Source of the DNA: Paralimibaculum aggregatum
GTDB taxonomy: Bacteria; Pseudomonadota; Alphaproteobacteria; Rhodobacterales; Rhodobacteraceae
Assembly: GCF_030270585.1 (NCBI RefSeq)
Contig: NZ_BSYI01000055.1
Coordinates: 1-32,601, forward strand
Direction: 5' to 3'
Length of the DNA stretch: 32,601 bases
The translations under genes and the position numbers were made by a program. The notes beneath the pieces are model-generated. The model ran no database searches, was not told the DNA's origin, and saw only the letters and a program-made list of their open reading frames with translations. The stretch's first letter is position 1. Each line of letters starts with the position of its first letter. Positions 25,658 through 32,601 of this stretch are shown piece after piece.

Positions 25658-26095
25658 TCAGGCCGCCCGGCGCGAGGGCCAGAGCACGGTGCCGAGCGCC
25701 AGCAGCGCCGCGAGCCCGGCAAAGGCCGGCCCGGCGCTGCCGCCGAACAGCAGGAACGGCAGGGCGGCGAAGGCGACCGGCCAGCCCGGCAGCCCGGCAT
25801 CGCGCATGCGCGCCGCGATCATGAAGAGCGCGGCGACGAGATAGAGCGCGAGGAGCAGGGTGGCGGCGACGATGCGGGCATCGGACAGGCCGTGGGCCAG
25901 CATGATGCCGGGCCCGTCGAGCAGGTTGCCGCTCTGATGGATCGCGGCGATCGCGGCGGCGCCGGCGGGGCCGCCGGTGATCGCGAAGAGCCAGGCGACG
26001 GCCATCGCGAAGCCGGCCGTGAGACCGGAGATCATCACGAAGAAGCCGAGCCGGTCGAGGCGGCCGAAATAGACGGAATCCAGAATGCTAGCCAT
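25658..26095 (-). CDS. DUF805-like small membrane protein
   Basis: A 145-residue inner-membrane protein with four hydrophobic segments. The DUF805-like marks are FGRLDRLGFF near the N-terminus and AARMRDAGLPGW between the third and fourth helices, where the family has an ARR-hD-xG-GW pattern. Function is unknown. The ATG at 26095 places the FGR motif about ten residues from the start, as usual. An in-frame ATG at 26206 would add 37 residues, including three cysteines, with no family similarity. Only a weak GAGAG precedes 26095. Both candidate start codons lie in the arms of a 16-base inverted repeat. The gene lies downstream of the tRNA-Asp gene on the same strand. About 67 bases separate its stop from the nuo promoter. 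Confidence 0.8.
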   Translation of the reverse strand: MASILDSVYFGRLDRLGFFVMISGLTAGFAMAVAWLFAITGGPAGAAAIAAIHQSGNLLDGPGIMLAHGLSDARIVAATLLLALYLVAALFMIAARMRDAGLPGWPVAFAALPFLLFGGSAGPAFAGLAALLALGTVLWPSRRAA

Positions 26096-26212
26096 GGCGC
26101 AGCGCTCTCGGTTCTGATCCTGCTTGCTCAAGTCGGCTGCGGGACCGCAGCCGCAGAACGCCAACTTCCGTAAAGGCCACTCAACTGGTGCGCGAGTGGC
26201 TAGCATCCTGGA
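26079..26212. repeat. Inverted repeat (15 of 16 matching) spanning both start codons of the DUF805-like gene
   Basis: TCCAGAATGCTAGCCA (26079-26094) and TGGCTAGCATCCTGGA (26197-26212) are reverse complements except for one base. In the minus-strand transcript the first arm contains the upstream ATG (26206) and the second lies on the annotated start (26095). Pairing would hide the start region; the intervening loop is about 102 bases. Confidence 0.7.
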
Positions 26213-26349: not shown

Positions 26350-26426
26350 TGGCGCGGTTGACGGGGCTCGAACCCGCGACCTCCGGCGTGACAGGCCGGC
26401 ACTCTAACCAACTGAGCTACAACCGC
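26350..26426 (-). tRNA. tRNA-Asp (anticodon GTC)
   Basis: The minus strand reads a full cloverleaf: acceptor stem GCGGTTG/CAACCGC, D arm GCTC-AGTTGGTTA-GAGT, anticodon stem CCGGC/GCCGG around CTGTCAC, and T arm GCGGGTTCGAGCCCCGT. The anticodon GTC is at 26390-26392. The discriminator base is G, as expected for Asp, and CCA is encoded in the DNA (26350-26352). It is transcribed from its own promoter. Confidence 0.97.
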
Positions 26427-26489: not shown

Positions 26490-26543
26490 GCGGGTCATGG
26501 GCGAAAGATTGCATTTTTGTGGAGCGCCCGATGCCGGCGCCGC

Positions 26544-29441
26544 TCAGCGCGCGGCGGTCCCGAAGGCGAGGGCCACGCTGTTCGAGCCGCGATGCTCGAT
26601 CGGCAGGGTGAACCAGAACAGCGAGCCGGTGCCGAGGCTGCTCTCGACGCCGATCTGCCCGCCGAGGGCCTCGACCAGCTGCTTGGAGATCGCGAGGCCG
26701 AGGCCGGTGCCGCCATAGCGCCGGCCGATGGTGCCGTCGGCCTGGGCAAAGCGGGTGAAGAGGGTCTTCTGCCCCTCCGACGAGATGCCGATGCCGGTGT
26801 CGCGCACCTCGAGGCGGATGAAGCCGTCGTTGCGCGGGTCGAGCCCGGCGCGGACGCAGACCTCGCCGCTCTCGGTGAACTTGATCGCGTTGCCGGCGAG
26901 GTTGACCAGCACCTGCCGCACCCGCGCCGGGTCGCCGAGCATGCGCTTCGGCACCTCCTCGTCGATCTCGATGCGCAGCGCCAGGCGCTTCTCCTTGGCG
27001 CGCAGCTCGAGCATGGCGAAGACCTCGTCGACGACATCGCGCAGGTCGTAGGGGGCGCTGTCGATCTGCACCTCGTTGGCCTCGAGCTTGGAATAGTCGA
27101 GAATGTCGTTGAGGATCTGCATCAGCCCCGAGGCCGAGGCATGCGCCGTCTGCGCCTGCACCCGCTGCGGCTCGGTGAGATCGGAGCGCAGCAGCAGCGC
27201 CAGCATGCCGGTGACGCCGTTCATCGGCGTGCGGATCTCGTGGGACATGTTGGCCAGGAACTGCGACTTGGCGATGTTGGCCTTCTCGGCGGCGAGCCAG
27301 CTTTCCTCGAGCGAGCGCTCATGCGCCTTCTGCGCGGTGATGTCCTGCAATGCGCCCATCAGCCGCTTCAGCCGGCCGTTCTCCACCAGCGGCTGCCCGG
27401 TGGCGCGGACCCAGATGCTGCGCCCGGTGGCGGTGACGAGCTCGAGCTCGCGGTCGAAGGGCAGGCGGCGCTCGATGCAGGTGGTCACCGCCTCGGTGAT
27501 CGTGCGCCGCGAATCGGGGGTGTAGAAGGCCATGGCGGCATCGAGGGTCGGCTCGTACCAGCGCGGCACCTCGTGGATCGACTTGGTGATCGAATCCCAG
27601 AACAGCGTGTCGCTCTCGACATCGAGCTCCCAGCCGCCGATGCCGGTGATCTCGACCACCTGGGCGAGCTTGCGGGTCTGCTCGCGGAGCTGGCCGGCGG
27701 CCGCCTCGGCGCGCTTGCGGGCGCTGTCGAGGGCGCGGGCCTGGCGCTTGGCCTCGGTGATGTCGAAGCGGAAGCCGACGCTGCCGCCGCTCGCTGTCCG
27801 GCGCTCGACGACGCGCACCCAGCGGTCGTCCGGCAGCCGGATCTCGAAGCTCGAATCGGCGGTGCGGTGCCGCTCGAGGCATTCGGCGACCCAGGCCTCC
27901 TCCTGGCCCTCGGCATCGAGGAACTGGCCGTTCCGCACGCCGTAGCGCAGGAACGCCTCGTAGCTCACGCCCTCCTCGATGATCTCGGCGCTGCGCGCGA
28001 AGATCTCGCGGAACTTGTCGTTGCACATCACCAGCCGGTCGTCGCTGTCGAACAGCACGAAGCCGTCGGGCAGGATGTTGATGGCGTCGAGCAGCCGCTG
28101 CTCGACCTCGATGGCGCGCTCGCGGGCGAGGGTCTGCTCGGTGACATCGGCGACCACGGCGCCGACGCCGGAGATCTCCCCCGCGGCATCGAAGACCGGG
28201 AACTTCACCGTGTGCAGGATCCGGTCGCCGAGCTCGGTGGTGGCGTATTCCTCGCGCGCCAGGGTCTGGCCGGTCTCGATCACGTGCAGGTCGTGCGCGC
28301 GGGTGCGGTCGGCCAGGCTGGAATAGTGCACGTCCTGCGGCAGCTTGCCGACGATGTCCTCGGCCTGCACGTTGAACAGCATCTCGAACTGCTTGTTGAT
28401 CTCGATATAGCGCCCGTCACAGTCCTTCAGGTAGATCTCGACCGGGGCGTTGTCGAAGATCGCCTTCAGCCGGTTCTGGCTCTCGCGCAGGGCCGAGGTC
28501 TTCTCGGCCACCGCCTTGCGCAGATAGGCGTTGACCCCGAGGCTGGCGAGCAGGAGCGCGGCGGTCAGCCCGGTGACGATCGGCACCCAGTCCGGCAGCG
28601 CGAAGCTGCTCTTGCGCACCAGCCAGCGGTCGAGCAGCGCGTAGTATTCCGATTTCGGGTCGGCCTTCATCAGCGCGACGGTGGCGTCCACGACCTCCAC
28701 CATGCTCTGCGGCACGCCGGGGGAATAGACGAAGTAGAGCGACAGCGGGCGGAACACGATGCTCGAACGCTCGAGCGCGAACTTGTCCTCGTGGGCGAGG
28801 CCGAAATGGTGGTTCACCACGCCGATATCGGCATCCCCGCGGGAGACCGCGCGCATCACCTCGATCAGCGAGGGCAGCGCGATGATCTCGACCTCGAAGC
28901 CGGTGCGCGCGGCGGCCTCGCGCAGCTCGCGCTCCTGCGGGCCGTCCTGCATCACGGCGACGCGGCGGCCGTCGAGATCGGCCAGGTCGCGCAGCGGCCG
29001 CGACGAGCCCTGCCGGGTGTAGAGCGCCGACCAGGTCTGCAGCACCGGCTCGCGGCCGAACCGCATGCGGCGCACGCCCTCTTCGGTATAGGCGACGTCG
29101 GGCAGGATATCGATCTCGCCGCGCCGGACCATCTGCACGCAGCGCTCGAGCTCGCAGGGGACATAGACCACCCGCATGCCGTGGCGCTCGGCGATCGCGT
29201 CGATCAGGCCGGGGAAGAAGCCCTGGGCATCGCCCTTGTCGTCGCGGAAGATCTTGGGCGCATTGTCGAACAGCCCGACATTGATCTGCCGGGTCAGCGT
29301 GTCGGCGCTCGCCGCCGCGGTGCCCGGCCGGAACCCGGCGCACAGCACCAGCAGCACCGCGCAGAGGATGCCTGCGTGGATCAAGACTCTCGGTGGGCGG
29401 CGATCTCGATGCCCGGCCCGATCCGATTTCGCGTGCGGCAC
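26544..29441 (-). CDS. Membrane sensor histidine kinase with periplasmic solute-binding-like domain and three PAS-like domains
   Basis: A 965-residue two-component sensor kinase. An Arg-rich N-terminus and hydrophobic segment (about 20-42) form a signal or anchor. Residues about 50-275 resemble a family 3 solute-binding protein ([49 protein letters not shown]). One transmembrane helix follows at about 286-305. Three PAS-like domains follow, at about 320-438, 448-565 and 590-705, each ending in a DIT/DVTE-type motif. The HisKA box [10 protein letters not shown] carries phospho-accepting His734. The ATPase domain has [16 protein letters not shown] and [11 protein letters not shown]. There is no receiver or HPt domain. 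The GTG at 29441 is chosen because GGGGAG lies five bases upstream and a TATATT -10 lies just before it; a TTG at 29495 is upstream of that promoter. No response regulator is in the window. The ligand is unknown, and cytoplasmic signals through PAS are also possible. Confidence 0.88.
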
Positions 29442-29464
29442 CTCGTCTCCCCGGTGACGTTTGC

Positions 29465-29495
29465 AATATACTGGCCGCCAGATTAGCAAGAGCAA
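29465..29495 (-). promoter_or_regulatory. Candidate promoter of the sensor kinase gene
   Basis: On the minus strand TATATT (29465-29470) is a good -10 in an AT-rich patch. TTGCTC (29490-29495) lies 19 bases upstream, a long spacing, so the -35 is weak. The leader to the GTG start would be about 17 bases. Confidence 0.45.
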
Positions 29496-29680: not shown

Positions 29681-32347
29681 GTGACTATCGGCAATGATAC
29701 CGGCGCGGCCCGGCTGGGGCTGAGTGCCGAGGATGCGCGCGGCAGGCTGCGCGAGCATGGCCCGAATCGTCAGCCCGGCCTGCTGCGCTCGCGCGCCCGG
29801 TTCCGGCTGGTCTCGGTCCTGGCCGATGCGCCGCTCCTGCTGGTCGCGGTGATCGCCGCCGCGCTGCTCGCCTTCGGCCAGGAGACGCAGGCGCTGCTGG
29901 TCAGCGGCGCGGCGCTGCTGCTGCTCGCGGTCTCGGCGCTCAAGGAGCGCTCCTCGGTGGCCGCGATCCGCGCCGCCGCGCGCAGCATCCGGCGCAAGGC
30001 GCTGGTGATCCGCGACGGGGTCGAGACCGTGGTGCCGGCGCGCGCGCTGGTGCCGGGCGATGCGGTGGTGCTGATGCCCGGCTGCCGGGTTCCCGCCGAT
30101 CTCGCGCTGATCGCCGACAACGGGCTGCGGATCGCCGGGCGCGACGGCACCGTCGATGCGGCGCCGCGCGATCCCGCCGGCGCGCCCCGGGCCGAGCTGG
30201 CCGCCGGCGCCTGGGTGCTGGCCGGGCAGGGCGTCGGGCTGGTCCGGCCGCGCGGCAAGGGCGCCGGCGGCGGCAGGGGCTGGCCGGCGCTGCCGGACGA
30301 GGCGGCGGCGCCGGAGCCGGAGCGGCCGGAGCGGCCGGAGCACGAACCGGAGACCGAGGCCGCCGTGCTCGGCGGCGTTTCGCGGCTGATGATCGGCGCC
30401 GTGCTGGTCGCGATGATCCCGGTGGGCGGCATCGTGGGCTTCCTGCTGCTGAAGCGGGCGCTCTCGGTCTCCGATGCGGCGGTGCTGGCGACCGCGCTGG
30501 TCGTGCTCACGGTGCCGCCCGGGCGGGCGACCGCCGCGGCGCTGCTGCTCGGCCGCACCGTGCGCCGGCTAGCCGCCGACGGGGCGGTGGCGCTGCACGG
30601 GCGGGCGCTCGAGGCGCTCAGCCTCACCGGCTTCATCTGCATCGACAGCGCCGACAGCCTGCGCGAGCGCGATCCGCAGGCCCGCGCCGCGCTGCTGCCG
30701 GACGGCACGCGGTTCGATTTCGCCGGCGACCCGGGCGACGATCCGCGCCTCACCGGGCCGGAGCAGCGCGCCGCGGAGCTGGAGCGCCTGCTGCGGGCCG
30801 CCATCGTGGCCGGCGGCGCCCGGCTCGAGCCGACCGACCCGGCCTACCGCCCCGAGGGCGATCCCGACGGGGTCGCGCTGGCCGCCATCGGCCTCGCCAT
30901 GGGCGTGCCGGCGGAGGCCTGGCGCGCCGTTCCGGTGGAGACCGGGCTCGGCCCCGCGCTTGCCGCCGGGGCGCTGCTCGAGGATGGCCGGCCGCGCCTC
31001 TGCCTGCGCGGCGGGGTCGCCGAGGTGCTCGATCTCTGCGCCGGCGCCGAGGGCGGCGCGGCGCCCGGCGCGCCCGGCGCGCCCGACCGGGAGGCGGTGC
31101 TGGCGGCGGCGGCGGCGCTCGAGGAGCAGGGCCTGCGCCCGCTCGCCGTGGCGCTGGGGCCGCCGCAGCAGGCGGAGGCCGAGCGCAACACCGATCTCGC
31201 CTTCCTCGGCCTCGTCGCCTTCGAGGACAGGCTGGCCCCCGATGCCCCCGCGGCGGCCCAGCGCGCCCGTGCCTCGCGGGTCCGCATCGCGGTGATGGAC
31301 GACCGCGCGACGGCGCTGGCCCGCTCCGACGGTGTCCGGCTCGGCCTCGTGGAGCCCTTCGAGCGCGGCGTCACCGGGGCGGATTTCCGGCGGGCCCGGC
31401 ATCTCGGCGTCGGCGGGGTGGACAACCTCGTGCGCCCGGCGCGGGTGTTCTCCGAGACCTCGCGGGCCGAGAAGGCGCTGGTCGCCGACAGCCTGCACCG
31501 CGACGGCTTCGTGGTCGCCGCCTTCGGCTCGCGGCACGCCGATCTGGCCGCGCTGCAGGCCGCCGATCTCGGCGCCGCGATCTACCGGCCGGGGGCCGAC
31601 AGCCTCGCCGAGACCGCGGATCTCGTGGTGAACGACGGCCGCATCACCGCGATCCTCGGGATGATCGCCACCGCCCGTGCCGGCTTCGAGCGGCTGCGGC
31701 GGATGCTGGCCTGCAGCCTCGGCACCGGCTTCGGCATCGCGCTGCTGTTCGCCGCGGTGCTCGTCCTCGGCGGGACGTTCCCGGTGCTGCCGGCGCCGCT
31801 GCTGGTGTTCGCGGTGGCGCTGTCGATCGGGACCGATCTCGTCTTCGCGCTGGACGATGGCGGCGCCGCGGCGCTCGACCGGCGGCGCCGGCGCAGCGCC
31901 GAGCCGCTGCTCACCCGCCCGGCGCTGTTCCTGCTGCCGCTGGCGGCACTCGGCTTCGCCGCGGTGGCCTACGGGGCGCTTGTCGGGCTGCAGCGGCTGG
32001 CCCTGCCGGTGGACGAGATCCGCGGCGCCATGGCGGTGACGCTCGCCGCGCTCGCCGCGGTGCGGCTGCTCGCGGGGCGGCGCGAGGATGCCTCGCTGCT
32101 CGCCGCCGAGACCTGGCGCAACCCGGCCGCGCCGGCCGTCGCGGTCGGCCTCGTGGCGCTGGCCGTGGCCGCCGGGATGGTGCCCGCGCTGGCATCGGCC
32201 GCCGGGCTGGCGGCGGCGCCGCCGGAGGCCTATCCGGTGATCGGCGCGGCGGTGCTGGCGCTGGCCGCGGTGGAGGACGTGCTGCGGCGGATGCGGGTCG
32301 CGATGCGCGACCGGGTGCTCAAGGTCACCCGTCGCGGGCGGGGATGA
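29681..32347 (+). CDS. P-type ATPase-like membrane protein lacking the catalytic motifs (apparent pseudoenzyme)
   Basis: An intact 888-residue protein with the layout of a P2-type cation ATPase: N-terminal LSAEDARGRLREHGPN, two helices (about 50-88), an A-like domain (RDGVETVVPARALVPGDAVV, then GCRVPADLALI), two helices (about 235-290), P/N-like domains, and about six C-terminal helices (680-865). Motifs that should be near-invariant are changed. There is no TGES. PEGL is VPPG (278-281). DKTGT is D322-SADS (in ICIDSADSL). KGAPE is RGGVAE (443-448). The TGD position reads VMDD (538-541). GDGVNDAP reads GSRHADLA (616-623). Surrounding residues still align (RRLAADGAVALHGRALEALS; AADLGAA; AETADLVVNDG). 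Ion pumping by phosphorylation therefore looks impossible. GTG at 29681 follows GGGGA about ten bases upstream. It is divergent from the sensor kinase. It may be a regulatory or scaffold relative of a pump. Confidence 0.8.
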   Translation: MTIGNDTGAARLGLSAEDARGRLREHGPNRQPGLLRSRARFRLVSVLADAPLLLVAVIAAALLAFGQETQALLVSGAALLLLAVSALKERSSVAAIRAAARSIRRKALVIRDGVETVVPARALVPGDAVVLMPGCRVPADLALIADNGLRIAGRDGTVDAAPRDPAGAPRAELAAGAWVLAGQGVGLVRPRGKGAGGGRGWPALPDEAAAPEPERPERPEHEPETEAAVLGGVSRLMIGAVLVAMIPVGGIVGFLLLKRALSVSDAAVLATALVVLTVPPGRATAAALLLGRTVRRLAADGAVALHGRALEALSLTGFICIDSADSLRERDPQARAALLPDGTRFDFAGDPGDDPRLTGPEQRAAELERLLRAAIVAGGARLEPTDPAYRPEGDPDGVALAAIGLAMGVPAEAWRAVPVETGLGPALAAGALLEDGRPRLCLRGGVAEVLDLCAGAEGGAAPGAPGAPDREAVLAAAAALEEQGLRPLAVALGPPQQAEAERNTDLAFLGLVAFEDRLAPDAPAAAQRARASRVRIAVMDDRATALARSDGVRLGLVEPFERGVTGADFRRARHLGVGGVDNLVRPARVFSETSRAEKALVADSLHRDGFVVAAFGSRHADLAALQAADLGAAIYRPGADSLAETADLVVNDGRITAILGMIATARAGFERLRRMLACSLGTGFGIALLFAAVLVLGGTFPVLPAPLLVFAVALSIGTDLVFALDDGGAAALDRRRRRSAEPLLTRPALFLLPLAALGFAAVAYGALVGLQRLALPVDEIRGAMAVTLAALAAVRLLAGRREDASLLAAETWRNPAAPAVAVGLVALAVAAGMVPALASAAGLAAAPPEAYPVIGAAVLALAAVEDVLRRMRVAMRDRVLKVTRRGRG

Positions 32348-32601
32348 AGGCGCTGCTCAGCCGCGCCCGGTGCGCCTCGGCGAGGGCGGCGCTGCGCGTG
32401 CCGCTGTAGCGGCGGAGCTGCGCGATCAGCTCCTCGTTGCGCTTGCCGAGACGCTCCATCAGCGCCTTGCGCATCGGCTCGCGGCCCTGCGCCTCGGCGA
32501 TCTCGACCGCCAGCAGGTCGACCGCCACCCAGGAGATCACCCCGGCGCCGATGCCGCAGGCGATGGCGAGCGGCCCGCCCGGGGCGCAGACCGCGGCGGC
32601 C
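32325..32601 (-). CDS. Unidentified membrane protein, C-terminal part (gene continues past right edge)
   Basis: The minus-strand frame is open to the window end and encodes at least 91 residues. Near the edge is a hydrophobic, glycine-rich segment (PLAIACGIGAGVISWVAVDL) that looks like a transmembrane helix. A charged, probably helical or coiled tail follows (REPMRKALMERLGKRNEELI, then SAALAEAHRARLSSAF). I do not recognise the family. The GTG at 32540 inside it is unlikely to be the true start because it would cut the helix. Its TGA end overlaps the convergent P-type ATPase-like gene by 23 bases. Confidence 0.6.
   Translation of the reverse strand, partial: AAAVCAPGGPLAIACGIGAGVISWVAVDLLAVEIAEAQGREPMRKALMERLGKRNEELIAQLRRYSGTRSAALAEAHRARLSSAFIPARDG

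Follow-up and report, generated by a model that had tools for sequence, protein, structure and literature searches.

Near one end of the DNA stretch analyzed here (the window: 32,601 nt, the entire contig C55 of the 5.5-Mb genome of Paralimibaculum aggregatum, which is 98.7% complete and 0.23% contaminated) lies a gene for a protein that keeps the body of a P2A-type cation ATPase but has its signature motifs replaced. We call this protein the pseudo-pump. It is quite probably catalytically dead, and we lean, somewhat less firmly, towards a protein that has been maintained in this dead state; a species-restricted pseudo-pump is the most likely reading. The gene is as follows.

29681..32347, plus strand: pseudo P2A-type ATPase gene, GTG start, 888 codons, recognized by its open frame and end-to-end homology

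A reading of this DNA from its sequence only (hereafter the sequence-only reading) had reported an uninterrupted 888-codon frame here, and both coordinates and frame were confirmed. An AAGGGGA stretch stands immediately 5' of the GTG start. The open frame alone is weak evidence, because at 70% G+C content (GC) the antisense strand of a neighboring kinase gene also carries an open frame of 989 codons; the reading frame is fixed by homology from end to end rather than by its openness. That antisense frame (26517-29486, plus strand) is probably a by-product of GC-rich codon usage, and it cautions against taking long open frames for genes in this genome. A promoter and terminator scan of the region gave no sigma-70-like promoter; its one terminator-like site lies on the opposite strand and is near chance expectation.

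Searches with four Pfam profiles, suggested as a check in the sequence-only reading, came out divided. E1-E2_ATPase (PF00122; 35.3 bits, cut-off 28.1) and Cation_ATPase_C (PF00689; 35.2, cut-off 27.3) passed, whereas Hydrolase (15, cut-off 26.4) and Cation_ATPase_N (11.8, cut-off 20.4) fell below. The PF00122 match spans just profile positions 3-48 of 181, and the remaining actuator (A) domain is remodelled. The best NCBIfam match was TIGR01522 (PMR1-type Ca2+ ATPase; E 1.8e-32), at 112.1 bits against a curated cut-off of 798.3, and TIGR01494 (haloacid dehalogenase [HAD]-IC P-type ATPase) reached 43.1 against 62.3. Sequence matches in the PDB included SPCA1 (E 1.2e-28) and LMCA1 (E 1e-26). The protein has ten hydropathy peaks, and its structure model, built with an alignment of intact pumps, shows a P-type ATPase fold, predicted to be E1-like, with a mean predicted local distance difference test score (pLDDT) of 74.2 and a predicted template modeling score (pTM) of 0.70; pLDDT is below 50 at residues 153-162 and 192-225. 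Homology, hydropathy, model, and fold matches bear out the domain and helix order of a P2-type cation ATPase that had been claimed. These results indicate that the pseudo-pump belongs by descent to the P-type ATPase superfamily, with A, phosphorylation (P), and nucleotide-binding (N) domains and ten predicted membrane helices (M1-M10). Judged by its residues, it would not qualify as a functional P2A-type Ca2+ ATPase: DKTGT, TGES, GDGVND, and the PEGL Glu are absent, and TIGR01522 is far below its cut-off.

The signatures of P-type ATPases are among the most constant motifs of transport proteins. The loss or rewriting of TGES, PEGL, DKTGT, KGAPE, TGD, and GDGVNDAP in the pseudo-pump, as claimed earlier, agrees with an alignment with 41 pumps. 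All of the following lie on the plus strand, with residue numbers in parentheses.

30149..30160, plus strand: TVDA (157-160), which replaces TGES, the dephosphorylation motif, by alignment; low model confidence
30293..30358, plus strand: Pro/Glu-rich linker (205-226), leading from the remodelled A domain to M3, by alignment and pLDDT; low model confidence
30515..30526, plus strand: PPGR (279-282), which replaces PEGL in M4, by alignment; the cation-site Glu is gone and an Arg gained
30644..30658, plus strand: DSADS (322-326), which replaces DKTGT, by sequence and alignment; Asp322 at the phosphoacceptor position is retained
31007..31024, plus strand: RGGVAE (443-448), which replaces KGAPE in the N domain, by alignment
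31298..31306, plus strand: DDR (540-542), which replaces TGD (HAD motif II), by alignment
31472..31474, plus strand: K598, the retained conserved P-domain Lys, in a column invariant in one comparison of pumps and at least 90% conserved in another
31526..31543, plus strand: GSRHAD (616-621), which replaces GDGVND, by alignment; the first Asp and the Asn are lost, the Gly and the second Asp retained

The canonical Asn-containing stretch of M6 is likewise replaced. The sequence-only reading went too far in naming the Asp of DKTGT as the sole remnant: besides D322, the catalytic-motif positions T157, P279, L327, G444, D516, A547, G616, and D621 also match the pumps, as does K598. We take K598, G616, and D621 to be Lys684, Gly702, and Asp707 of SERCA.

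The pseudo-pump retains 50 of the 102 columns that are at least 90% conserved among the 41 pumps; when each of 42 pumps was left out in turn as a control, 41 retained at least 87% of such columns. The 42 control pumps had been selected by their DKTG, GDGxNDA, and TGE motifs, which makes their catalytic columns conserved by construction. One pump, L017 (genome G040), retains only 75 of 102 and perhaps belongs to a different P-type subfamily. In a wider set of full-length homologues (69 rows from 68 loci, L100 repeating L002; frame of at least 780 residues, phmmer E ≤1e-8), DKTG[TS] was present in 69/69, and GDGxxD also in 69/69. The genome rows had been retrieved with the pseudo-pump, except L100 (via PF00122); the viral-contig rows, some of them apparent near-duplicates, had been retrieved by two patterns, one of which, TGDGVND, biases them for that motif. 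TGE[ST] was found in only 51 of the 69 rows (38/39 from genomes, 13/30 from viral contigs), so the loss of TGES alone is unremarkable in the wider superfamily. Two rows deviate individually: L029 (G028) has GDGVNDGP instead of GDGVNDAP, and L014 (G055) is without the TGE[ST] pattern. The same genome encodes an intact P2A pump (L002, contig C26) that keeps DKTG and is 31% identical to the pseudo-pump, as well as two more E1-E2 ATPases, on C4 and C19.

We compared the gene with simulated drift of the intact paralogue L002 to 31% identity (20 runs per setting, with substitutions but without indels). GC at the first, second, and third codon positions (GC1/2/3) is 0.84/0.56/0.95, with GC3 at 0.91-0.97 across all sliding blocks, and the GC3-GC2 contrast is 0.39, compared with 0.16-0.18 after drift. 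At equilibrium GC of 0.65, 0.70, 0.80, 0.90, and 0.95, drift produced 13.3, 10.1, 6.8, 3.1, and 1.6 stops on average, whereas the pseudo-pump has none; at 0.95, at least one of the 20 runs was stop-free. Three neighboring intergenic stretches have a GC of 0.62-0.68. The score of the pseudo-pump to a third pump (L037) is 190 bits, and the best simulated score was 118. Across ten paralogue-aligned segments, eight of which were read as membrane helices, mean hydropathy is about 1.7 with 1.0 charge each (averages taken by hand from listed values), compared with 0.13-0.40 and 3.1-3.2 charges in simulations. Whatever the GC setting, codon-position contrast, hydropathy, and profile score all reject neutral drift the whole way from an L002-like pump; stop counts reject it too, save at the highest GC of 0.95. 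The absence of stops, part of what the sequence-only reading took as a sign of selection, gains weight from the simulations; as noted above, the open frame alone says little at this GC.

Losses fell preferentially on catalytic columns, of which 9/32 were kept, compared with 41/70 of the others (Fisher p 0.0055; p 0.016 with stratification, whether by residue class or by residue); these p-values are indicative, because the motif columns were chosen after the alignment had been seen and from pumps selected for the motifs. From the codon positions, the lack of stops, the charge-poor membrane segments, and the loss of catalytic columns, we infer that most of the divergence accrued under selection for the fold. 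Sequence and model together support the view that, for most of the divergence though not demonstrably today, selection acted on the fold but not on catalysis. The selected pseudoenzyme of the sequence-only reading is supported in part: catalytic residues were lost while constraint on the fold was kept for most of the history of the protein.

An orthologue carrying these replacements was sought without success in 61 relatives and the 4 other genus genomes (E 1e-3 in both; at most 15 candidates scored per genome in the relatives; the genus set comprised 5 genomes including its own, one of them 85% complete), in 394 family genomes (E 1e-45), and in 390 order, 385 class, and 398 phylum genomes (E 1e-50). 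These samples overlap, and because the family, order, class, and phylum searches scored the two best candidates per genome, a weaker orthologue could have been missed. Recurrence of the replacements in orthologues had been put forward as a check, and none of these samples bore it out. Inspected matches were pumps with DKTG, or short frames or fragments of other P-type ATPases, and none lacked all the motifs. A scan of genome contigs gave one pump with all motifs present, and a plasmid search gave one partial, weak match.

Several of these results weigh against a maintained protein and speak for a gene that is now decaying, in which pump function was lost, drift followed under relaxed selection, and stops and frameshifts are yet to come or selection ended recently. 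The pseudo-pump is a single sequence, no orthologue shares its changes, and its segment is species-specific, which leaves present-day selection unproven. Its end branch is 9.22 changes per column, compared with a median of 0.64; of the highly conserved columns half are gone, including 29 non-catalytic ones. On these two grounds constraint is clearly relaxed. The composition has drifted to GC-rich residues (21% Ala), and the modelled fold may be inherited from the intact pumps of the alignment. The long branch also makes the placement unsure: the smallest supported set in the tree that holds the pseudo-pump has 7 rows (Shimodaira-Hasegawa-like approximate likelihood ratio test 98), read as L002, L032, L033, L037, L038, L040, and the pseudo-pump. 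Against decay stand the drift simulations, which reject drift as an account of the whole divergence; decay may be confined to the last part of this history. Overall, we consider a gene now in decay unlikely.

A non-canonical yet active transporter, running a modified phosphoryl-transfer cycle on Asp322, Lys598, and Asp621, is less probable still. In its favor, three core P-domain positions are retained, and such a cycle has been claimed for human ERMA/TMEM94, which has DKQGI and GSSANL and no TGES, and in which Mg2+ uptake is reported to depend on Asp427 and to be abolished by D427N (PMC13322241). In the pseudo-pump, however, the motif II Thr, the first motif IV Asp, the DKTGT Lys and Thr, the TGES Glu, and the PEGL Glu are all lost, and the pump status of ERMA is itself disputed, another group having detected neither ATPase activity nor Post-Albers states in detergent (PMC12134183). 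As for a sequencing or assembly artefact, the contig does stop 254 bases 3' of the gene, but the many separate replacements are all in frame, GC3 is high throughout the gene, and the genome is nearly complete with little contamination; we regard an artefact as scarcely credible.

If the pseudo-pump is the maintained, dead protein we favor, a paralogue of P2A-type cation ATPases would have lost ATP-driven transport and kept the membrane topology and domain fold. Given established P-type ATPase chemistry, including the functions of individual SERCA residues, and the missing motif residues, the phosphorylation-dephosphorylation cycle would not be run (no TGES Glu, first GDGVND Asp, DKTGT Lys and Thr, or TGD Thr), and cation binding at the canonical site would not be possible (no PEGL Glu or usual M6 residues). 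The protein probably has a membrane job other than pumping. A role as a membrane scaffold or regulator is a guess, if the most natural one: such a protein might pair with the genome's intact P2A pump, or serve the sensor kinase encoded divergently beside it, and any particular partner is doubtful at best.

26544..29495, minus strand: sensor histidine kinase (SBP_bac_3, PAS_4, PAS_7, PAS_3, HisKA, HATPase_c, by Pfam), divergent neighbor, link unproven
26350..26426, minus strand: tRNA-Asp(GTC), the last feature shared with relatives before the kinase/pseudo-pump segment

The kinase and pseudo-pump genes are divergent and 185 bases apart, and this common intergenic region is the only hint of a sensing, scaffold, or regulator role. 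Searches with the kinase gave no hit at E 1e-100 among the 4 remaining genus genomes or at E 1e-120 among the other 197 family genomes, where four candidates per genome were scored. Three relatives from the genus have tRNA-Asp and tRNA-Val followed by lon, clpX, and clpP (names assigned by eye from protein starts) upstream of nuoA. The tRNAs are less than 0.5 kb apart in two of them, with tRNA-Val and lon within about 0.5-1 kb; in the third (L089 3393-8993), about 5.6 kb with other open frames separates the tRNAs, which makes this a variable site within the genus. In the present genome, the kinase and the pseudo-pump come after tRNA-Asp and take up the rest of the contig, whereas tRNA-Val and lon are found within contig C6. 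This context makes the segment with the pair species-specific, at a site that varies. An island at the 3' end of the tRNA does not fit, as the segment is on the 5' side of tRNA-Asp.

Elsewhere in the window are the nuo cluster and domains of type III pantothenate kinase, RNase J, aldehyde dehydrogenase, and glycosyl hydrolase 3. Between nuoA and tRNA-Asp, a small protein (25658-26206, minus strand) matches DUF805 weakly (18.2 bits, cut-off 25.7) and has no match beside nuoA in the three genus relatives. Right after the pseudo-pump gene, a frame without a Pfam match (32230-32601, minus strand) extends past the contig end.

With P2A Ca2+ ATPases (SPCA1/PMR1, LMCA1, SERCA) and L002, the pseudo-pump shares the domain order, ten hydrophobic membrane segments, a predicted E1-like fold, and D322, K598, G616, and D621 of the P domain. 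It differs in that all six signature motifs and the M4 and M6 cation-site residues are replaced, the A domain is shortened, and a Pro/Glu-rich linker is added.

By analogy, the nearest known precedent would be human TMEM94/ERMA, a P-type fold with degenerate motifs; it was the only protein with comparable motif loss to surface in our literature search, which, judged by titles and abstract openings of the papers listed, gave no bacterial P-type pseudo-pump. TMEM94 was described with no nucleotide at the phosphorylation site and in nearly a single conformation under six conditions; its affinity for AMPPCP is micromolar, and the authors still allow autoinhibition in detergent (PMC12134183). SPCA is named as the pump structure most similar to it (PMC12134183; PMC13322241). 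On the motifs given in these sources, both proteins lack TGES, keep the motif I Asp within a degenerate motif, and have Ser for the first Asp of GDGVND with the Gly kept (GSSANL in TMEM94, GSRHAD in the pseudo-pump). By the same sources, they differ at the DKTGT Lys, kept in TMEM94 but Ser in the pseudo-pump, and at the second motif IV Asp, lost in TMEM94 but kept in the pseudo-pump. TMEM94 also has a GMN motif at M10, which occurs nowhere in the pseudo-pump, and is eukaryotic, not bacterial. TMEM94 was not among the best 60 of 76 PDB sequence matches or among the 50 fold matches listed for the model, and the likeness, drawn from motifs, may be convergent. As one sequence that lacks orthologues, the pseudo-pump is a lead rather than an established family. 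A speculative and rather improbable idea is that it is a convergent bacterial counterpart of TMEM94/ERMA, a P-type body without the Post-Albers cycle that acts either as an uncoupled conduit or, perhaps in the service of the SBP-PAS histidine kinase, as a membrane sensor or scaffold. If true, it would be a natural experiment on the capacities of the pump fold without ATP coupling, and a genetically tractable bacterial case would let non-pumping uses of the P-type fold be tested.
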